Source of the DNA: a virus | DNA length: 29,114 bases | IMG/VR virus record: IMGVR_UViG_3300044682_000088 | Coordinates: 1 to 29,114 of that record | Strand: one strand, 5' to 3' | Shown: in pieces, positions 2,028-22,500 of the stretch | How positions within the stretch are numbered: the stretch's first letter is position 1 | Layout of the letters: every line of letters starts with the position of its first letter | Notes under the pieces: model-generated | The model's input: the letters and a program-made list of their open reading frames with translations, nothing else | The model's database searches: none | Told to the model about the DNA's origin: nothing | Position numbers and translations under genes: made by a program

Positions 2028-2667
2028 ACCGCCGGCTGGGTTCGACCGCACCATCGACCTCGATCTGCGGCGGTTAGTGGCGTTCTGGCCAGACGAGGGC
2101 CCGCTGGAGCTGCGTCGGGCGCTGACGGCGGAGGAACGGGTCGCCGCAGAGCGGAGGGCGGCCGAGCTCGCGGAGGCCTTGCGGCCGCACGGTGATGCCG
2201 ACCGGGCGCGGGTCGAATCCGCGTTGGCGGCGATGCTCGGCGGCTTCAGGTCGATGCGGCAGACCGGGGAGGACGCCGAGACGGTCGTTACCGTGCTGCG
2301 GGCCGTGTTGCGGGAGTTCCCGGCTTGGGCGGTCGAGCGGGCCTGCCTGCGCATCGCGCGCCGCGAGGCCGGGCTGGATGCGAGGTGGGCACCGAACGAC
2401 GCCCAAGTAGCGGAGATCTGCCGCGGGGTAGTCGCGGAGTACCGCGAGGCGCTGGAGAACGCCGAGGGCCTGCTCTTGGCCGTCGTTGCGAAAGGTTACC
2501 TCCCTCCCAAAGGGGGAGGTACCGAGGTCGCCAAGCCGCCGCCGTTGCACCGCGACACCGGCTATGCCGCCAGGGTCGCCGACGACCTCGCCCGCCGCAA
2601 GGCAGCGCGGGAGAACGAGCCGGCCGAAGCGGAGTCCGACGCCTATTACGGGGACGACGTTGGGTAA
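1942..2667 (+). CDS. Unrecognised phage protein in replication/modification operon
   Basis: 241 aa. The start is placed at the ATG at 1942 because a strong GGAGGAGG ribosome-binding site lies just upstream. The gene overlaps the end of the DUF1376 gene by 86 bases. The protein is Ala/Arg/Glu-rich and mostly helical, with no enzyme motif that I recognise. The middle (residues about 95-170) has regularly spaced hydrophobic residues suggesting a helical bundle (VTVLRAVLREFPAWAVERAC, then RWAPNDAQVAEICR). The last phrase resembles helicase-loader or DnaT-like segments, but that is weak. It ends inside the likely TTG start of the C5 methyltransferase. Confidence 0.6.
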   Translation: MKAIGQVATGIAVASRASRQGVPARRSAEPPAGFDRTIDLDLRRLVAFWPDEGPLELRRALTAEERVAAERRAAELAEALRPHGDADRARVESALAAMLGGFRSMRQTGEDAETVVTVLRAVLREFPAWAVERACLRIARREAGLDARWAPNDAQVAEICRGVVAEYREALENAEGLLLAVVAKGYLPPKGGGTEVAKPPPLHRDTGYAARVADDLARRKAARENEPAEAESDAYYGDDVG

Positions 2668-5212
2668 CGCCGCCGCCGAGGTGCTGGCCGCCTACTCCGG
2701 CTCGAACGCCGACCGGACGCGGGCGCTGTACGCCAAGCTGTCGGCCCTCGGGCCGGCCGGGGAGGTCGCCGTCAACTTGCTGAGGAGCTGCAAGACCTCG
2801 GAGAGGGCGAAGGTCTACCGCCGCCGATCGAGCCGCGGCGCCGCCTACGACACGAAGGGTTGGGCGATGGACAACCTCTGCAGGCTGCTCGGCGAGCACG
2901 CCGGCGCGCTCGGCGTCGGCTGGGGATGGGGGGAGGACGCCGAGACGCCGGGCTTCCCTTGGGTCTTATACGTCGAACTCTCCGACGGCGTCGGACAGGT
3001 CAGCTTCCACGCCGCGGCGCGCGGCGAGGGGCCTGCCTACGGCAAGCCTTGGGACGGTGCCAAGGGCGTCTCTGGGCAGAGGGCCTGCTCGTGGGCGGCT
3101 ACCTTGCTCGAACGTGCTGTCGGCCCTCCGCCGCCTGCCGCGGGGCCTCCCAAGATCAAGGCCGCCACGCTCTTCTCGGGGATCGGGGCTCCCGAGGTCG
3201 CTTGCCCGGACTGGGAGTGGCTTTGGCACGCCGAAGTCGAGAGCTTCCCCTGCGCCGTGATGAAGGCGCGCCATCCCGAATCCGTCAACCTTGGAGATGT
3301 CAATGCCGAAGACTTCGTCGAACGGGCAACGGCAACAGGAAAGCCCGACGTCATCGTATGGGGCTCGCCGTGCCAATCGTTCTCGGTAGCCGGGAAGAGG
3401 CTAGGTCTTGACGATCCGCGTGGAAACTTGACGCTGCTCGGGATCAAAAGGATCGGCGAACTCAAACCAAAATATAGCGTGTGGGAAAACGTACCTGGCG
3501 TCCTCAGTGACGAGGACGGCCTTACGATTCAAACCGTCGTAGAGTTGTTTACTCAAATAGGATATATTTGCGATATTGATATTTGGGACGCGCAATGGGG
3601 CGGCGTGCCCCAACGTCGCCGCAGGGTTTTCATCGTATGCGCGAGGTTAGACGATTTACTTCAGAAGAGGACGCCTACATCCGAGCGCATCGCGGCCGAT
3701 CTACTTGTACAAGCGTTGCTCGCCACTTGGGACGCAGCCTTGGAAGCATCGTCTCCAAGGAGATCACCCTCGGTATCAGAACCAAGAATAGGCGTATCCG
3801 AAAGTTCAGCAAACGCGAAGATGCGTTCCTTAGACGCTCTTTCGGGAGGATCAGCGGTCACGAGATTGCTCGCATTCTGGGCCGATTCTCAGATGGCAAG
3901 CGGCGTTGGCGACAAGAACATCGCGTCGTCGCAGAGGCAGTTTTGGGGAGACCTCTGGAGCAAGCTGAGAGGCCGCACCACGTCGACCTCGACGGAAGCA
4001 ACAACTCCGAACGAAATCTGTACGTTTGCCGAAATGAGTCTCATCATCGTTCGGTCCATAATCACCTCGCCAACCTCCTCGCTCAGCCAGCCTTGGTCCA
4101 GCGACTATTGGAGCTTGGCGTTCTTCGCTTTGACCATCATGAAGGAAATTATCGCCTATGCGGGATCGGCAAGTTGCGAACTCTTTAGCACTTCGGAATT
4201 GCGTTCTCGTTGGTGGGCTTGTCTCAACGACGCGAACTCCTGTTTCCTCGAGCTTGAGCGATATATTGGAAACTGGGCAACTTCCGAGCAAATACTTTCT
4301 CTCGCCGAAAGCTTGCGCTGGAATCCTGCGCCGGGCCGAGAAGCGGGGGAAGGAGTTGCCCCAACAATTAGCGCGCGCCCTACGGCTGGCGGCGGCCTCG
4401 GCACCGACTTCGATCTAGACGGCGGACTGATCCAGCAGGAAGCCTTCAACAACCAAGGCCACGGCTGGTGGGACAAAACCGACGCCGCACAGACGGTGCG
4501 GAAGGGCGACGATGGCGGGAGCGGCGGCGCGCGGGAGAGCACGCTGGTGGTCGCCCCTCCGCTCAACGCCGGGATGGGCCGCAGGCGCGGCAGCGGCGCG
4601 CATGGTGACCCGCTGGTCTCTGGTGCCGTTTCCGCGAAGTGGTCGAAGGGCACCGGCGGCCCGAGCGGGGACGAGTGCTACAACTTAGTCGCCTTCGACT
4701 ACAAGGCTGGCGGCGAAACCTCGTTCGCGGTCGGGCGCCAAGCCGGCGCGCTGCGCGGGGACGGTCACGGAGGCGGTCATGCCGCGATAGCCTTCCAGAC
4801 CCGCGTTGCCCGCAACGGTAGGGGCGGTGGTGAAGACGTCGTGCCGGCGCTCAACGGGGCGGACGCCGGGGCGACCTCCGACATGCGGCCGTGCGTCGCC
4901 GTGTTCAAGCCGTCGCATTTCACGAGGGACAAGGACGCCGGACCGTCCGACATCGTACCGCCGCTCACCGCCGACGCCGACAAGGGCGACCAAGACCCCG
5001 TACTGATGGATGGCGTCGCCGTGCGCAGGCTTACGCCGAGGGAGTGCGCAAGGCTTCAGGGCTTTCCAGACAATCATTTGGACATCACGTTCCGCGGAAA
5101 ACCCGCAGCTGATGGCCCAAAATATAAGGCGTTGGGGAATGCGATGTGCGTAAAAGAGGTCCGCTGGATCCTGCGGAGGATCGAGAAGTTCGAGCGCGAG
5201 GTGCGGAAGTGA
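2660..5212 (+). CDS. Phage C5-cytosine DNA methyltransferase with N-terminal extra domain and internal insert
   Basis: 850 aa from a TTG start that overlaps the previous stop by eight bases, with GGGG about six bases upstream. Residues 1-155 form an extra module (SERAKVYRRRSSRGAAYDTK, WAMDNLCRLLGEHAG, WVLYVELSDG, VSFHAAARGEGPAYG) of a kind seen alone or fused in phages. Then come the C5 motifs: I (KAATLFSGIGAPE), IV (VWGSPCQSFS, catalytic Cys238), VI (ENVPG), VIII (QRRRRVFIV). A roughly 210-residue insert follows (about 326-536), and it overlaps an HNH gene in another frame. The enzyme frame then resumes with a long Gly-rich target-recognition region, motif IX (RRLTPRECARLQGFPD) and motif X (KYKALGNAMC). 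It transfers methyl groups to cytosine C5, probably as phage self-protection. The insert is odd: it is open but low-complexity and lower in GC. Splicing at RNA or protein level cannot be excluded. Confidence 0.85.
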   Translation: MGNAAAEVLAAYSGSNADRTRALYAKLSALGPAGEVAVNLLRSCKTSERAKVYRRRSSRGAAYDTKGWAMDNLCRLLGEHAGALGVGWGWGEDAETPGFPWVLYVELSDGVGQVSFHAAARGEGPAYGKPWDGAKGVSGQRACSWAATLLERAVGPPPPAAGPPKIKAATLFSGIGAPEVACPDWEWLWHAEVESFPCAVMKARHPESVNLGDVNAEDFVERATATGKPDVIVWGSPCQSFSVAGKRLGLDDPRGNLTLLGIKRIGELKPKYSVWENVPGVLSDEDGLTIQTVVELFTQIGYICDIDIWDAQWGGVPQRRRRVFIVCARLDDLLQKRTPTSERIAADLLVQALLATWDAALEASSPRRSPSVSEPRIGVSESSANAKMRSLDALSGGSAVTRLLAFWADSQMASGVGDKNIASSQRQFWGDLWSKLRGRTTSTSTEATTPNEICTFAEMSLIIVRSIITSPTSSLSQPWSSDYWSLAFFALTIMKEIIAYAGSASCELFSTSELRSRWWACLNDANSCFLELERYIGNWATSEQILSLAESLRWNPAPGREAGEGVAPTISARPTAGGGLGTDFDLDGGLIQQEAFNNQGHGWWDKTDAAQTVRKGDDGGSGGARESTLVVAPPLNAGMGRRRGSGAHGDPLVSGAVSAKWSKGTGGPSGDECYNLVAFDYKAGGETSFAVGRQAGALRGDGHGGGHAAIAFQTRVARNGRGGGEDVVPALNGADAGATSDMRPCVAVFKPSHFTRDKDAGPSDIVPPLTADADKGDQDPVLMDGVAVRRLTPRECARLQGFPDNHLDITFRGKPAADGPKYKALGNAMCVKEVRWILRRIEKFEREVRK
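3637..4188 (+). CDS. HNH homing-type endonuclease nested inside the C5 methyltransferase
   Basis: 183 aa from ATG 3637, read one base ahead of the methyltransferase codons. The first half has two helix-turn-helix/SANT-like segments (FTSEEDAYIRAH with ARHLGRS; FSKREDAFLRR with EIARILGR). The second half is a clear HNH nuclease: EHRVVAEAVLGRPL, then HHVDLDGSNNSERNLYVC with the paired His and Asn, and a final HHRSVHNHLANLL. These are the landmarks of phage HNH homing enzymes. Protein-like sequence is in this frame, while the overlapping host frame reads as shifted residues (Thr/Ser-rich at the HNH core). Base composition is visibly less GC-rich than the flanks. Its ATG sits at the point where methyltransferase similarity breaks after motif VIII. 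Confidence 0.8.
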   Translation: MREVRRFTSEEDAYIRAHRGRSTCTSVARHLGRSLGSIVSKEITLGIRTKNRRIRKFSKREDAFLRRSFGRISGHEIARILGRFSDGKRRWRQEHRVVAEAVLGRPLEQAERPHHVDLDGSNNSERNLYVCRNESHHRSVHNHLANLLAQPALVQRLLELGVLRFDHHEGNYRLCGIGKLRTL

Positions 5213-5800
5213 TCAAGATCATCGTAGGAGACTGCCGCGCCGTGATGCGCTCGCTGCCAGAGGAATCCGTGCAGGCCTGCATTACGTCGCCCCCCTATTA
5301 CGGCTTGCGTGAATACGGAATCGAGCCATCGCTGTGGGACGGCGACTTGGTCGACTGCGACCACGAGTGGGGTCAACCCCACCGGACAGCTTGGGCGAAC
5401 AGCGTGCAGGGCGAGAAGGGCGGCCGCGGCGGCAAGAACATCAATTATCGCACCACCGCGAAGGAGACTGGCCCGTTCTGCGTCAAATGCGGGTGCTGGC
5501 GCGGCGTCCTCGGTATGGAGCCCGACTTCCGCGAGTTCATCGCGCACGTCGTTGATGTTTTCCGCGAGGTCCGCCGCGTATTGCGGCCCGACGGGGTCGT
5601 CTTCCTGAACTTGGGCGACTCGTACGCGACGGGCGCCGGGGCAGTCGGCGATCATCCCGGCGGCGGCGAGCAGGGAGCCAGGTGGGTCGGCCGGCCAGCG
5701 CTTGGCAAGACAGCTTGGGCCGGCCGCAACGTACCGGGCAATCATCGCGGGCAGGAAGGCAGGTGGCGCGGCGAGGGCTCGAAGCATGACTACGGCATAG
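5209..5800 (+). pseudogene. N4/N6 DNA methyltransferase, N-terminal half only
   Basis: The start is a GTG overlapping the C5 gene stop (GTGA). The protein begins VIKIIVGDCRAVMRSLPEES, then QACITSPPYYGLREYG, where SPPY is the catalytic motif IV of amino-methyltransferases. A CxxC pair (CVKCGC) and a FREVRRVLRPDG/FLNLGDSY segment follow, all typical of phage-borne enzymes of this class. Similarity stops near 5790. The frame then runs on to 6354 through sequence that is the antisense of a minus-strand gene. The expected SAM-binding FxGxG motif and C-terminus are missing. The likely cause is insertion, with loss of the 3' half. The C-terminal fragment at the window start looks like a different subfamily, so it is not simply the missing half. 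Confidence 0.7.
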
Positions 5801-5806
5801 GGCGGC

Positions 5807-5850
5807 TTTGCCTAATAATCCTCGTTTGCCTAATAACTCTCGCATTTGCC
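5807..5850. repeat. Short tandem repeat at the insertion junction
   Basis: Two 18-base units (TTTGCCTAATAATCCTCG and TTTGCCTAATAACTCTCG) differ at two bases and are followed by a third partial TTTGCC at 5845..5850. They sit exactly between the truncated methyltransferase and the stop of the minus-strand gene, marking the join between phage-like GC-rich sequence and AT-richer cargo. Confidence 0.6.
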
Positions 5851-5865
5851 CAAAAAGCCTATGCC

Positions 5866-6734
5866 TCAAGTAGGATCGCCAGCGCTCATCAATTCAACCA
5901 AGATCATATTGCCGGCGTCAACGTTGCGCCCGTCGAGGTTGAACGTCAGCCGAGCGCGGACGTCGCCATTGGTGCGCCAGAGGTGATAGACGAATGGAGT
6001 GTAATGAGGCTCCCGCTCGCCGAACGAAAAATAATATTCAATCGATCCCAAAATAACCGGCACCATTTCTACCGCCGGGTCTCCCCTAAAATCTTTCAGA
6101 CTGGCGATTTTAGTTTCTGGAATAATCAGCGTGCGGGGAATAATCAAATCGTCCTGAGCACCGGGAAACAATGGGCGTTCGATTATCGGGCGTCGAGTAG
6201 ATGTGCGGTGGCTTTCTTGCAGCTTAGCCATCTCACCGGGAATATCGTCGTTCAAGAGGAATGGGAAAATCGCTGCGGCCAAAGAGACGCGCTGCGCGGG
6301 CGAAGTTCCCTGTTTTTACAAAAAACATTGATTCTGAAGATTGCATTCCGTTGAGCCCATGCGAGGCCAACGGTAATTGCTACGCATGTGACCGAAACCC
6401 ACGGCCTATGCGTCGCATTGAAATCGTCGCGAGCAATGGCAATGGACTCTCTAGTGATGCTCCACATTTTCTCGTTGGATTTCCAGAGCGTATAGGTGAA
6501 AGCGGCAATAGCTACGGTCGCGAGAGCGGTAAAAGCAGCGGCGCTGCTATCCAAGAACCTTCCAATTTCGAGGAGAAAGAACGCCGCGAGATTGTGAACG
6601 GTGCAGTATTCTTGGCCGGATTGGGCGCGCTCGCATATCTGGCTTTGAAAGCCGGATAGCCATGCGGCGAGTAATAGAAGACACGATCCGCCAACGAGAC
6701 CAGAAGCGACGCGCTTTAGCATTGGCGTTACCAT
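5866..6734 (-). pseudogene. Two-TM membrane protein gene with an apparent frameshift
   Basis: Two minus-strand frames join into one protein. The upstream part (6252..6734, ATG at 6734, GGAG upstream) has a hydrophobic N-terminal segment, a second segment (SSAAAFTALATVAIAAFTYTLW), then a helical stretch ending THRPWVSVTCVAI. The downstream part (5866..6282) continues as the soluble beta-rich domain of the same family (PVILGSIEYYF, FVYHLWRTNGD). This two-TM plus HRPW layout is common in uncharacterised proteobacterial inner-membrane proteins. The frame changes between about 6282 and 6330, near runs of T and A, so the gene is either decayed or carries a sequencing error. Its orientation and lower GC oppose those of its neighbours. 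It looks like cargo inserted into the methyltransferase operon. Confidence 0.6.
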
Positions 6735-7497: not shown

Positions 7498-7560
7498 CAT
7501 GAAAAAACTGCGCAATTATACTGACGAAAGTTGCGCGACGTTTTGTCATCAAGGACATCA

Positions 7561-8148
7561 ATGCCGAAAAAGCCCAAGCCTGACGATTGGTCAACGCCGA
7601 AGAGTTGGCCAGCATCGAAGGTAGAGATGCGCCCACTCTCATGGATCAAGCAATACGAAGGCAATCCGCGGACGCACCCGCCAGCGCAAATCGACCTTTT
7701 AGCGCGGTCAATGCGCGACGACGGCGTGACGATGCCAATCTTGGTGGACGAGGGCGGGATTATCATCGCGGGGCACGGGCGCCGCCTTGCCGCGCTACAA
7801 AACAGCTACGATGAGTTTCCGGTCGTAATCGCATACGGTTGGTCCGACGAGAAGAAGCGCGCCGCAAGGATCAAGGATAATTCATACGGGCTAATGAGCG
7901 GATGGGACAAGGAGCTGCTTCGCGCTGAAATCATCCACCTCCAAGCACTCGACGGCGACCTGCAACTCCTCGGCTTCGGCGACGCCGAGCTGGTACAGTT
8001 CACCACGCTGCCTGGACCGCCAGATCAGTTCCCTGCGGTCGGGGACGTCAATACGAGTTACTGCTGCCCGCGCTGCGGCCACTCTTGGTCTGGCGACCCA
8101 ATGGCCGGCGAGCGGAAGGCCAAGAACAAAAATGCCAAGAAGCGGTGA
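7561..8148 (+). CDS. ParB N-terminal domain protein with C-terminal zinc ribbon
   Basis: 195 aa from ATG 7561, with AAGGA eight bases upstream. Residues 25-110 form a ParB/Srx-type nucleotide-binding domain: PLSWIKQYEGNPRTHP, then DGVTMPILVDEGG and IIAGHGRRLAA, the GHGRR box that contacts nucleotide in ParB relatives. A helical region and YCCPRCGHSW (a CxxC half zinc ribbon) follow, then a basic tail. Phage proteins of this type are commonly found beside DNA methyltransferases. Some are nucleases, while others probably have a DNA-modification role. There is no clear helix-turn-helix like that of plasmid or chromosome ParB. The next gene starts inside its last 17 bases. Confidence 0.75.
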   Translation: MPKKPKPDDWSTPKSWPASKVEMRPLSWIKQYEGNPRTHPPAQIDLLARSMRDDGVTMPILVDEGGIIIAGHGRRLAALQNSYDEFPVVIAYGWSDEKKRAARIKDNSYGLMSGWDKELLRAEIIHLQALDGDLQLLGFGDAELVQFTTLPGPPDQFPAVGDVNTSYCCPRCGHSWSGDPMAGERKAKNKNAKKR

Positions 8149-10222
8149 CCTCGTCGCGGCGTCGCTTTTTGCGGGGGTCGGCGGCAGCAGCTTGGGGTAC
8201 CGCTCGGTCGGCTTCCGCGTCGTCTACGCCAACGAGTTCTCGCCCCACGCCTCGGGCTGCTACGCGCTGAACATGGACCGGGCGACGAAACTCGACGCCA
8301 GCGACGTCCGCGAGGTCAAGGCGGCCGCCTTCGGTGTTGCCAAGGGTGAGTTAGACCTTCTCGACGGCAGCCCGCCGTGCTTTACGGCTGAGGCGCTGAT
8401 CATGACTAAGGCTGGCCTACGGCCGATTACGGACGTTAAGATAGGCGATCTGGTACTTACGCATCGGCTGCGGTGGCGCCGCGTTACCAATACTTCCCAG
8501 CGGCGCGCAGAAACGATCAAGCTCAAGGGCCAAGGTCATCCAGGGCTCGCGACGACGAATGAGCATCCGTTCTGGGTGCGCCAACTCGGTCGAAAGTTTA
8601 ACCGAGCGAAGCGCAGATATGATCGCGCTTTCGGCAACCCAGAATGGATAGGGGCTGGCAAGTTGCGGCCAGACGCGAAGGGTCACCACCAAGGTGGCCG
8701 CGCTTGGTTCTGGTCGGCGCCGTCTGCTTTTCCGAAAGCGCGGGTTCCTTTGATACCGACGCTAAACAAGCGAAGCCATATCTTCAATACGAGTTCGGCG
8801 GCGCTCATGTGGGTTGTCGGCGCGTGGCTTGGGGATGGCTGGCTTCGAACCGGCCCGACATCGGATCATAAGGGGACACGCGGGGAAGTGCTCATTTGCA
8901 GTAGCAAAGCTGAAGCGCCGTGGCTCGAAGCTTCTCTACGCCGTGCCGGTTTGCGGTTTTCATCCAGGGACGAGCGAACTACGCGCCGCTTCGCGATCAT
9001 GAGCAAGCCGTTCGCTATATGGCTTGAGAAGCATTTCGGGAGATACAGCGGCGGTAAGCGTCTTCCAGCATGGGCTTACGGCATGCACCGCGATCTGCGC
9101 GAGGCGCTGCTTTCGGGGTACCGCTTCGCAGACGGGACCGAGGCCGTACAAGTCAGAGGTGGGTGTCCCATTCAGCGGTTCTCAACCGTAAACAAAGGGC
9201 TCGCTATTGGCTTTCGCCTGCTGGCCGGTACGCTCGGTAAATCGGCTACGATTATGTGGAGCGACATGCCGACCAAGAAGAAAATTGAAGGGCGCATCGT
9301 CAACCAGCGCGGCTTTTATCAACTCACGATCTATGATCGCGCTCGAAGTGCTTTCGCTGAAGGCGGCATGTTCTGGGGCAAGATCCGAAGTATCGCCGAA
9401 ACCGGCATCGTTGCGGATGTTTTCAATATCGAGGTCGAGGAAGACAATAGCTACGTCGCTGATGGCATCGTAGTTCATAACTGCCAAGCATTCTCGATGT
9501 CAGGCAAGCGCGCCGAGAACTGGGGCAAGGAGAGGCGCTACGCCCACGGCGCCACGCAACGCAACGAGGACTTGTTCTTCGAGTTCGTCAGGTTGCGCGA
9601 CGAGGCCATGCCGCGCGCGTTCGTGGCGGAGAACGTACCTGGCTTGGTCAAGGGGGTAGCGAAGGGGTACTTCCTCGACATCATGCGGGAGTTGCGGCGC
9701 GGCTACCGCGTCGAGGCCCGCCTCCTCGACGCGCAGTGGCTGGGCGTCCCGCAGGCCAGGCAGCGCTTGGTCTTCGTCGGCATCCGCGACGACCTCGGCA
9801 TGGACCCAGTATTTCCGGAGCCACAGCGGCACCGGATCTCGGTGAAGGAGGCCCTGCCAGGGATAGCGGTCGCTTGGCGCGACCGGCGCGGCGCCTTCGG
9901 CAACAGCGGCGACATGACCAACAAGCCGGCTCCGACCGTCCTCGCGGACAGCGTCGGGACCCATTGGGTCGTCGACGTCGGGTCGACTGAGCGTCGGAAG
10001 ATGACGATCGACGAGCTCAAGGTCGTCTGCGGTTTCCCCCGGGACTACAAGATGGACGGCAGCTACGCCGAGCAATGGAAGGGGCTCGGCAATTGCGTGC
10101 CGCCGCCGATGACGGCCGCCATCGGCGCCGCGCTCAGGGACCGCGTGCTGCTTCCCGCGCGAGCCGCCGCCAGAATCGCCGCGCGCGGGCGACGTTCGAC
10201 GGCGAGTTCCAAAAGTGGCTGA
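8132..10222 (+). CDS. C5-cytosine DNA methyltransferase precursor split by an intein
   Basis: 696 aa precursor; removing the 368-residue intein leaves 328 aa, a normal size for a C5 methyltransferase. Motif I is SLFAGVGGSSLGYRSVG near residue 10. Motif IV is interrupted: the extein reads GSPP, then the intein begins with Cys83, and after the intein the extein resumes CQAFSMSGKR with Cys451. Splicing therefore restores the catalytic PPCQ. Later motifs are AENVPGL (VI), QARQRLVFVG (VIII), LKVVCGFPRDY (IX) and WKGLGNCVPPPM (X). The enzyme methylates cytosine at C5, probably to protect phage DNA. Activity should depend on splicing because both copies of the Cys are splice-junction residues. The 3' end overlaps an antisense uracil-DNA glycosylase-like gene. 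Confidence 0.9.
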   Translation: MPRSGDLVAASLFAGVGGSSLGYRSVGFRVVYANEFSPHASGCYALNMDRATKLDASDVREVKAAAFGVAKGELDLLDGSPPCFTAEALIMTKAGLRPITDVKIGDLVLTHRLRWRRVTNTSQRRAETIKLKGQGHPGLATTNEHPFWVRQLGRKFNRAKRRYDRAFGNPEWIGAGKLRPDAKGHHQGGRAWFWSAPSAFPKARVPLIPTLNKRSHIFNTSSAALMWVVGAWLGDGWLRTGPTSDHKGTRGEVLICSSKAEAPWLEASLRRAGLRFSSRDERTTRRFAIMSKPFAIWLEKHFGRYSGGKRLPAWAYGMHRDLREALLSGYRFADGTEAVQVRGGCPIQRFSTVNKGLAIGFRLLAGTLGKSATIMWSDMPTKKKIEGRIVNQRGFYQLTIYDRARSAFAEGGMFWGKIRSIAETGIVADVFNIEVEEDNSYVADGIVVHNCQAFSMSGKRAENWGKERRYAHGATQRNEDLFFEFVRLRDEAMPRAFVAENVPGLVKGVAKGYFLDIMRELRRGYRVEARLLDAQWLGVPQARQRLVFVGIRDDLGMDPVFPEPQRHRISVKEALPGIAVAWRDRRGAFGNSGDMTNKPAPTVLADSVGTHWVVDVGSTERRKMTIDELKVVCGFPRDYKMDGSYAEQWKGLGNCVPPPMTAAIGAALRDRVLLPARAAARIAARGRRSTASSKSG
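8378..9481 (+). mobile_element. LAGLIDADG intein at the methyltransferase catalytic Cys
   Basis: 368 codons. Block A starts CFTAEALIMTKAGLRPITDV. Block B has GLATTNEHPFWV (the TxxH site). The central endonuclease shows two LAGLIDADG-like motifs, VVGAWLGDGWLR and LLSGYRFADGTEAV. Block F/G is DVFNIEVEEDNSYVADGIVV followed by the terminal His-Asn, with Cys as the +1 residue. All residues needed for class 1 splicing (Cys1, the TxxH His, penultimate His, Asn, +1 Cys) are present. Base composition is less GC-rich than the exteins, consistent with separate origin. The endonuclease probably recognises the empty methyltransferase motif IV site. Confidence 0.9.
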
Positions 10223-19525: not shown

Positions 19526-22500
19526 TGGCCAAGAACCGACACGGCGGAGTGCGCGAGGGTTCCGGACGCCCCAGCAAGGAGGAGCTGGAGGCCGTCGCCC
19601 GCGGCGCGCCGCGCAAGGTCATCAACGAGATACGCAAGCGCAAGGCGGATGAGGCCAGCAAGAGGCGCGAGCGCAAGGGCACCATCGAGCCAATACCCAA
19701 AGTCGCCGCCGAGCCGAAGGCCCCTGGCAAGCAGTTGGTGGCGGTCAACTGGCGCAACGTCAGCAGGCGCAGCGTCGAGGTACGCAAGAACAAGCGCGCC
19801 GATCTCAATCCCTTCGGCCTGCCGGCGTTCCCCCCCATCGCCATCCCACCGAAGGAATCCGGCCTGCAGATGGGGGACTACCTGAAGGAGAAGGCTCGCT
19901 CGGGCATGGCGATGGACGACTCGTTGAGTTGGGCCGGCCAAGCTTGGGCAGGGAGCGTCATCGAGGGTGCCACCGACGCCGGCCTCGCCTTCATGGGCTA
20001 TCCCTTCCTGTCGCTGTTGGCGCAGCGGCCTGAATACCGCATCCCGGCGGAGACGATCGCCGACGACGCCACGCGCCGCTGGATCGACTTCGAGATCACC
20101 GGCGAGAAGAAACGCAAGGCGAAGGAGAACGAGGAGAAGCTCCGCCAAAACGGCGCCGCGCAAGGTCCGCGCTCCCCCGAGGGGATTCAGCGCAACCCAG
20201 GCCGCGGCTTCGACGAGGCCGATCCGGACCAGCGGCAGAAGAACACCGAGGAATCTGGCAAGGCCGACAAGGTCAAGGCCATCAAGGACAAGCTGCTCGA
20301 GCTGGAGGCGCGCGACCGCTTCTACTGCAACAGCCGCGACGACTCGTTCTTCGGGCGCTCTCACCTTTACTTCAACTTCGGCACCGACATCGACGGCGAT
20401 GCCCCCGACGAGCTGCGGACGCCGATCGGCGACGGCCGCGACGCCACCAGCCAAGGCAAGGTCGGCAAGGAAGCGCCCCTGAAGTCGTTGCGCGTCATCG
20501 AGCCGGTGTGGACGTACCCGACGACCTACAACGCCGTGAACCCGCTGCGCGAGGACTGGTACAACCCGCAGGTGTGGTACGTGCTCGGCAAGGAGATCCA
20601 CCGCTCCAGGCTGCCCACCTTCATCGGCCGACCGGTGCCGGACCTGCTGAAGCCGGCGTACAGCTTCGGCGGCATCTCGCTGTCGCAGCTCCTGAAGCCG
20701 TACGTCGACATCTGGCTGACGACGAGGGACAGCATCGGGGCGCTGATCCACTCGTTCTCTGTCATGGTGCTGATGACCGACGTCCAGACGATCCTGCAGG
20801 ACGGCGGCGGCATGGAGGGGCCCTACGGCCTGCTGGCGCGGGTCCAGCAGTTCAACGACATGCGCGACAACCAGAACACGTTCGTCCTCAACAAGATGAC
20901 GGAGGACTTCAAGAACGTGTCGGCGTCGCTGGCCGGGCTGCACGAGCTCCAAGCCCAGGCGCAGGAGCACATGGCGGCCACGGCCCGGATCCCCTTGGTC
21001 AAGTTCACCGGCATCGCGCCGTCGGGCCTCAACGCATGTTTGACTGGAGATACTTTGATCGAAGCTGATCAAGGATACGTACCGATTCGGGATGTACGCG
21101 TAGGTCAGAAAGTGATGACCCGTGAGGGTTGGGCGCCAATTGCGAAGGCCGGATGCACGGGCTACGCTATTGAATTGATTGAGATTGAGACTGCGGAGTC
21201 GGTAATTCGATGCACGGCAGATCACCGGATTTGGCTACCTTCGATAAACGCATTTGTGCCTGCCGAGAATGTGCGTCGTGGGGACCTGCTATTGCATCGT
21301 GGCGCAATCGAAAACCGAAATACGGCGAATCAATTGCATATGGGGGCCGGTTTTGGTGGGACAGGGGGGATGGCTATTACGCCACCTCAGCGTCTCACGA
21401 TGGGGAGCATCTGCTTGAATTTTGCTGCAATTGGTGCAGGCTCGCTGATCGACGAGGGAGGAGAATCTCACAGGCTAGGCCTCGTCCGATCTGTATTTGC
21501 CTCGTGTGCGGCATATCTTTCGAGGCGAAGCGAAAGGATGCAAAATATTGTTCTCGAAAGTGCTCAAGCGCGAGCCAAGACCGGGCGGCCTATATGTCCA
21601 ACTACTACAAAGAAAATCGTGAGAAATGGATCGAATGTAGCAAGCGCCGAAATCCGAGGCGTCGTCTCCAGCGTGCGGCGCGTGCCAGCGCAAGAGTTCG
21701 TATATGACATCCAAGTAGCGCATGGATTTCTGCCAGAATTTTTCGCAAATGGTATTTGCGTCCATAATTCGTCAGAGGGTGAAATCCGCGTCTACTACGA
21801 CACCATCGCGGCCTACCAGAACCGCTTCTTCCGGCCGAACCTCACGAAACTCATCAACTTCGTGCAGCTGTCGTTGTTCGGCGAGATCGACCCCGAGATC
21901 ACGTTCGAGTTCGAGCCGCTGTGGGAGATGAGCGAGAAGGAGCGCGCCGAGCTCCAGAAGGAGCAGGCCGAGACCCACAAGACCTACGTCGACATGGGCG
22001 CCATCGGCAACGACGAGGTCCGCCAAGTCGCGATCGACGACCCGAAGATGCCGTACAGCGATCTCAACCCCGACGACGTACCCGAACTCCGCAAGGAGGA
22101 GGAAGAGGGCTTGGTGCCAGAGGGCGGGGCCAAGGCCGTCGAGGGCCTCGTCGAGGGCGGACCCGGCACCGGCGGCGGCGCGGCCCCTGGCGGCGGCGCG
22201 GCCCCGAAGAAAGGCGGCGGCGGCAAGGATCCAGCGTTCGAGGACGGCCCCGGAGGTGCCGCCGCGGTGCTCCCTTTCCTGCACGCCGCCGACGCCAAGC
22301 TGACAAAGGCGGAGGCTGAGTATGTCCCCTCGATCGAGGACGTCACCGAGCAGTGCTCGCAGTGCTCGATGTTCGAGCGGACCGCCGACACCTTCGAGGA
22401 CAACCGCTGCAACTTGGTCGACGGCGACATCTCCGCGCTCGGCCACTGCAAGCGCTTCCAGCGGCTGAGCCCGCAGGAACAGCGTGAGGACGCCGACGCC

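Follow-up and report, generated by a model that had tools for sequence, protein, structure and literature searches.

A predicted LAGLIDADG intein splitting a phage C5 cytosine methyltransferase at its catalytic cysteine

The 29,114-nt virus DNA of IMG/VR record IMGVR_UViG_3300044682_000088 (the window, by which we mean this whole stretch) carries a C5 cytosine methyltransferase gene with a long in-frame insertion at the codon of the catalytic Cys. A preliminary description, made without database searches, took the insertion for an intein and proposed that its splicing times methylation. The locus raises the question of whether the insertion is indeed an intein and, if so, whether it serves the phage as a switch or is carried as a mobile element. 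From the analyses below, we regard it as very probable that the insertion is a full-length class 1-type intein with a LAGLIDADG domain, and that it is a selfish element tolerated by the phage and not a switch.

The methyltransferase and its intein

The gene occupies positions 8132 to 10222 of the plus strand and encodes a precursor of 696 residues (P0002), recognized by its open frame, translation, family profiles and fold. Pfam identified DNA_methylase (PF00145, E=2.7e-42) and NCBIfam identified dcm (TIGR00675, 138 bits against a cut-off of 100.65), and structure comparison likewise placed the host enzyme among the C5 methyltransferases. The N-extein of 82 residues (8132 to 8377) includes LFAGVGG (8165 to 8185), which we take to be motif I, and ends in DLLDGSPP. 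The C-extein (9482 to 10219) begins CQAFSMSGKR, its first residue (+1) being the catalytic Cys (9482 to 9484), and contains ENV (9629 to 9637), QARQR (9752 to 9766), and GNCVPP (10088 to 10105), to which we assign the roles that we presume these motifs to have in C5 enzymes. Motif I, the motif IV Cys, ENV, QxRxR, and the motif X GN were all found by translation and alignment, and Cys451, E500, V502, R543, and R545 were unchanged throughout a 34-row alignment of precursors. By its sequence, the host enzyme around the intein looks intact.

The AlphaFold model of the precursor, built with 34 sequences, had a pLDDT of 82.8 and a pTM of 0.60, and matched both solved C5 methyltransferases (Z of about 24 to 30) and solved inteins (Z of about 25 to 29). 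Stretches with pLDDT below 50 were residues 81-84 at the break, 452-479 in the loop following the +1 catalytic Cys, 586-591, 605-609, and the C-terminus. In the model, the low values at 81-84 and 452-479 would fit a catalytic loop held out of its normal place.

The start of the methyltransferase gene is overlapped by a ParB-like gene (7531 to 8148, plus strand; phrog_620, E=3.5e-40). A ParB-like gene also lies directly 5' of the methyltransferase kin of Streptomyces phage TurkishDelight, Erwinia phage Yoloswag, and Yersinia phage fHe-Yen9-02 (loci L091, L147, and L151). The solved protein nearest in sequence to the window methyltransferase is 8yf3, titled a C5-carboxymethyltransferase (E=2.5e-37). 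We take C5-carboxymethyltransferases to be marked by an Arg or Lys where motif X otherwise has Asn, and the window enzyme has GN at this position, as does L140. GR was found instead in all five jumbo-phage kin and TurkishDelight (L090, L091, L149, L150, L151, and L147), as well as in 8yf3; given this residue, the jumbo-phage enzymes may carboxymethylate.

The intein itself comprises 368 residues (CFTAEALIM...GIVVHN; 8378 to 9481, plus strand), and the preliminary description had located it correctly to the base, as judged from the frame, boundaries, splicing residues, profiles, and fold. It was also right that the insertion splits PP|CQ such that Cys1 and the +1 Cys each stand in the catalytic position. 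A TGC codon is found at both ends of the intein, and the DNA alone would therefore permit a boundary one codon later; the boundary was set at PP|C because splicing chemistry demands it. Pfam matched Hint_2 (E=8.3e-07) above its gathering score and Intein_splicing (E=2.4e-05) below it (24.6 versus 35.8 bits), and NCBIfam intein_Cterm (TIGR01443) scored above its cut-off in P0002.

Conservation was read from 89 sequences (80 IMG/VR loci, eight phage loci, and the window), of which 15 were dropped for other exteins, stops, or short flanks, leaving 45 representatives at 90% identity. The residues of a class 1 intein are present in the window: Cys1, the block B TxxH (T60-N-E-H63; 8555 to 8566, plus strand), and a C-terminal splicing region (9416 to 9481, plus strand; TIGR01443 at residues 347-368) ending in VVHN|C with the penultimate His, the terminal Asn, and the +1 Cys. 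Cys1, His63, His367, Asn368, and the +1 Cys are found in 45 of 45 representatives, as are a Thr or Ser at position 60 and a Ser at +5; residue -1 is Pro in 32, Asp in 11, and Thr and Glu in one each. Two LAGLIDADG-type motifs, both helical in the model, lie around WVVGAWLGDGW (8810 to 8842, plus strand) and LLSGYRFADG (9104 to 9136, plus strand), and their acidic residues, Asp153 and Asp252, are kept in 43 and 44 of the 45, respectively. Splicing and endonuclease functions thus both appear, from this conservation, to be under constraint in most lineages.

The AlphaFold model of the intein, made with 47 natural sequences, reached a pLDDT of 95.3 and a pTM of 0.92 and had the HINT splicing fold of solved inteins. 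Foldseek returned as best matches the TliVMA intein (7qsu, E=9.1e-18) and PI-SceI (1ef0, E=3.2e-17), and the endonuclease part matched I-DmoI as well as PI-SceI. A phmmer search of the intein against PDB sequences gave no match, and the link to solved inteins is by fold comparison only. The best relative of the intein aligned over 368 of 368 residues (E=1e-57). Together, the sequence and modeled fold place the identification far beyond chance. An RNA intron was ruled out: the window had no Rfam match at gathering thresholds, and the frame is open across the insertion.

The C5 cysteine site in phages, plasmids, and genomes

The preliminary description had proposed searching for inteins at the same Cys of other phage C5 methyltransferases, and many were found. 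With tblastn, the intein matched 78 of 50,697 phage records and 133 of 72,556 plasmid records. A single-protein scan of IMG/VR with the intein gave no close relatives; a profile scan did find 158, of which the best 80 were used. The profile was the pattern of the intein C-terminus, which biases the scan toward inteins like that of the window. Judged by reading the junctions, 74 of these best 80 of 158 loci carry the intein at the same C5 catalytic Cys, and the other six (L034, L045, L046, L051, L069, and L089) carry it elsewhere. Among the same best 80 of 158, the PF00145 domain was found in 70 of the 79 C-exteins scanned, that of L088 being too short.

Junctions were also read in eight phage loci. 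In seven, the intein precedes the C5 catalytic Cys: EBPR siphovirus 2, P1 Dmt, Pseudomonas phage Lana, Propionibacterium phage B22, Mannheimia phage 587AP2, and two fecal phages, one of which (L008) has stops within the intein. The eighth, Mycobacterium phage Pacc40, has its intein in an N4-type methylase. Further cases at the C5 site were Lactobacillus phage Nyseid, two Erwinia jumbo phages, and one Rhizobium plasmid. In the Mannheimia phage locus (L007) and in L074 and L075, the gene with the same-site intein has a C-extein frame of only 20 residues; in L007, a separate C5 fragment and an HNH gene lie downstream of it.

A scan of cellular genomes gave 45 loci, with a C5 C-extein by Pfam in 22 and ribonucleotide reductases in nine. 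The titles of the C5-type records name Pseudomonadota, Bacillota, Actinomycetota, Verrucomicrobiota, Spirochaetota, and Syntrophorhabdus, and many of these cases may be prophages or binning errors.

Two phage protein families bear on how such genes are labeled. One, phrog_36001 (function unassigned), covers both methyltransferase and intein of P0002 (E=2.8e-92); the other, phrog_26446, named "anaerobic ribonucleoside reductase", matches the intein part and is the likely source of the reductase label on mycobacteriophage methylases. Intein sharing suggests a cause for database mislabels of this kind, in which methylases are named after a protein with which they share only the intein.

The earlier proposal that the site offers a homing target shared by phages and hosts stands in part. 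The site is indeed common to many phages and some bacterial genomes; at the DNA level, however, its conservation is short and partial, and a similar site in the same window has not been invaded. The joined, intein-free form of the window site is GGCAGCCCGCCG-TGCCAAGCATTC. The motif IV site of a second C5 gene, at 3347 to 3400 (TCGCCG-TGCCAATCGTTCTCG), is uninterrupted, and its core, CCGTGCCAA..TTCTCG, resembles the invaded one.

Movement and retention of the intein

In the mechanism we propose, Cys1 would attack the bond joining PP to Cys1 after translation, and the enzyme's own catalytic Cys would receive the chain as the +1 nucleophile. Asn368 would cyclize and the two halves would be ligated, restoring the motif IV Cys without a scar. 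The LAGLIDADG endonuclease would cut intein-free methyltransferase genes at the site, and repair would copy the intein in. Three properties would make the site suitable for an intein: the enzyme provides the needed +1 Cys, the gene is comparatively well conserved there, and loss must be exact for the enzyme to stay alive. C5 methyltransferase chemistry needs the motif IV catalytic Cys, so it is plausible that the precursor is inactive until splicing, as the preliminary description had predicted.

The exteins closest to those of the window, in L139-L142 (about 62-64% identity), lack the intein and have an uninterrupted PPCQ, and the TurkishDelight methyltransferase (55% identical to that of the window) is likewise uninterrupted at the site. 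Among the sequences compared, there was no intein-free allele of the window gene closer than about 62-64% identity. The intein nearest to that of the window (L010, 43% identity) resides in a methyltransferase that is only 31% identical. We had expected a close intein in the Erwinia and Yersinia jumbo-phage kin, whose exteins are 42-45% identical to those of the window; their inteins are just 25-26% identical, with worn LAGLIDADG motifs, which would fit a later stage of the homing cycle.

Similarity of inteins and exteins was compared across the 45 representatives using anchored alignments. The two were correlated (Mantel r=0.75, with none of 5000 permutations as high), so for a large part the inteins have descended together with their exteins or passed between similar enzymes. 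Some groupings made by the inteins were nonetheless rejected by the extein data: the window with L010 (AU p=0.037); the window with L010, L098, L002, L032, and L109 (p=3.2e-5, the source intein branch being weak at 89/39); and one further, larger set (p=4e-6). A grouping of L021, L023, and L039 was also rejected (p=0.0005), having first been spotted in a comparison that used both inteins and exteins, and the p values are accordingly to be read as guides. This conflict between the intein and methyltransferase trees supports horizontal movement as its probable source. In an intein tree of 71 rows, the 57 rows at the C5 site required five changes, compared to a mean of 13.1 when shuffled, and none of 500 shuffles was as low. 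The strong (starred) branches forced at least two of these changes, and therefore the C5 site was entered, or left, more than once. A single origin, with all C5-site inteins in one clade, was not upheld.

P1-like plasmid-prophages provide empty and filled copies of the site with nearly identical flanks. The Dmt of reference P1 (NC_005856) lacks the intein and reads an uninterrupted GTPCQAF; P1 record OP279344 has an intein of 341 residues at the Cys of the Dmt C5 domain. The two flanks were joined into a 531-base query. Of the 497 plasmid records it hit, 361 matched as a single block covering at least 80% of the query; of the 5,426 E. coli genomes, 492 were hit, 337 as a single block. Among the matches listed (25 per search), the flanks were contiguous at 529-533 bases. 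Of the 133 intein-bearing plasmid records, 129 are from Escherichia, Salmonella, or Shigella, which, set against the matches to the flank query, means that about one quarter of P1-like elements carry the intein. Since most copies are without it and the flanks are near-identical, the intein is dispensable to the enzyme there.

In one further P1-like locus, L057, the intein matches that of OP279344 at 1021 of 1023 bases. The 450 bases following it are identical to intein-free reference P1 at every position, and to OP279344 at only 437; the same intein thus occurs in different backgrounds. Among 22 P1-type inteins (13 distinct), variable codons comprised 13 nonsynonymous and 14 synonymous, compared to possible changes of 2389:680 (p=0.0007); when 70% nonsynonymous was expected, p was 0.014. 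This deficit of nonsynonymous change indicates that the P1-type intein sequence is still under selection. The P1 group is a ready laboratory system, since its dmt genes are nearly the same whether or not they contain the intein, and such a pair would permit direct tests of splicing and homing and of what the intein costs the phage.

These findings bear on the readings that compete with a tolerated mobile element. Were the insertion an assembly join or a chance frame, it would not be an intein at all; in favor of this is that the window comes from a 29-kb virus record whose completeness is uncertain. Yet independent phage isolates align with the insertion along its entire 368 residues, at an identical position and with matching ends, and records of cultured phages and of plasmids are arranged likewise. 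We rejected this reading on account of those identical boundaries, and it is hardly credible. It is also very unlikely that the intein has lost splicing and that the gene is dead or dying. Broken copies are known, as L088 has a stop inside the intein and L074 and L075 have the 20-residue C-exteins, and residue 357, in block F of the window intein, is Asn, whereas it is His in some relatives. However, the window intein has every residue that is invariant in the family, its 696-residue frame is open, it is modeled with confidence, and Asn at position 357 is common (of the 45 representatives, Glu in 19, Asn in 17, His in eight, and Ser in one).

Conditional splicing is improbable as well. In that reading, the intein is kept because redox, metals, or temperature set its splicing rate and with it the moment at which the methyltransferase turns active. 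In its favor, both splicing nucleophiles are Cys, and oxidation of an intein Cys is documented as a brake in a mycobacterial DnaB intein (PMC6195587). Residue -2 is Cys in two of the 45 representatives, and the resulting CP|C junction, which L002, L032, and L098 have, could allow a disulfide with Cys1. The window junction is SPP|C, however, without a Cys at -2; no signs of a sensor were found in the sequence, and most P1-like elements do without the intein. The earlier claim that splicing times methylation thus drew no direct support. A broader proposal is that a group of inteins specialized for the C5 Cys uses the enzyme's nucleophile and roams through unrelated phages, P1-like plasmid-prophages, and prophages of several phyla, with Cys oxidation as an on-switch for methylation in some hosts, most plausibly those with CP|C; taken as a whole, this is doubtful. 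A selfish, tolerated intein is the reading we retain.

The window holds other elements of interest. The second C5 methyltransferase gene (2618 to 5209) contains, after motif VIII, an out-of-frame HNH open reading frame (3583 to 4188; phrog_15471, E=1.8e-11), throughout which the host frame remains open, an arrangement like that of the ShiLan element (PMC11855218). A single-protein scan of IMG/VR gave no relative of this HNH frame. Two partial N6/N4 methylase genes are also present, a C-terminal part at the left edge (65 to 541) and an N-terminal part (5146 to 6354) whose family match stops at about residue 164 of 402.

The portal-protein gene of the window has a second intein (21037 to 21768, 244 residues) with an out-of-frame open reading frame inside it (21210 to 21707), and the portal intein of a related locus, L152 (2328 to 3425, 366 residues), has one at 2501 to 3364. 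The hidden frame matched phrog_1271, HNH endonuclease (E=1.6e-6), and had no Pfam match. The window copy is missing a stretch relative to L152, whose hidden frame has what we take to be a fuller HNH-like stretch. Substitutions between window and L152 at intein codon positions 1, 2, and 3 numbered 7, 2, and 26 before the overlap and 1, 1, and 8 after it. Inside the overlap they numbered 20, 53, and 25 (of 165 each), with the peak at intein position 2, the equivalent of position 3 in the hidden frame. This pattern points to a putative endonuclease hidden out of frame within the portal intein.

Comparison with known systems

Inteins at enzyme active sites are already known. An intein at the Cys of a C5 methyltransferase was not found reported in the open-access literature searched, nor did any paper there turn out to name the P1 Dmt intein, and earlier notice is possible, above all for P1 Dmt; our best call is that the inteins at the C5 Cys are a new allele family. 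They would represent an insertion site that is widespread, has apparently gone unreported, and lies in an enzyme family that ranks among the best studied.

The inteins DNMT-1 and DNMT-2 of actinophages (PMC5050341, PMC9957025) are similar in that a LAGLIDADG intein with patchy spread resides in a phage DNA methylase. Their hosts are N6/N4 methylases (PMC5050341), whereas that of the window is a C5 enzyme invaded at its catalytic Cys; the word "cytosine" does not occur in the main text of PMC9957025. The methylase intein of Pacc40 is homologous to the window intein over its full length at about 30% identity, and in the intein tree a starred branch of their own unites the two N4/N6 rows.

The archaeal VMA inteins and yeast PI-SceI (7qsu, 7qss, and 1ef0) are the best fold matches and likewise combine HINT and LAGLIDADG domains, but they are only 13-16% identical to the window intein and reside in another host protein at another site. 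The ShiLan element (PMC11855218) is, like the window intein, inserted into a phage methylase and shows a pattern of homing; by that paper's account, it differs in having an out-of-frame HNH and no self-splicing domains, and it is not an intein. The P1-like Dmt intein shares with that of the window the Cys site of the C5 domain and its residues, at 32% identity, and differs in its length, 341 residues compared to 368, and in a host enzyme that also has a Dam domain.
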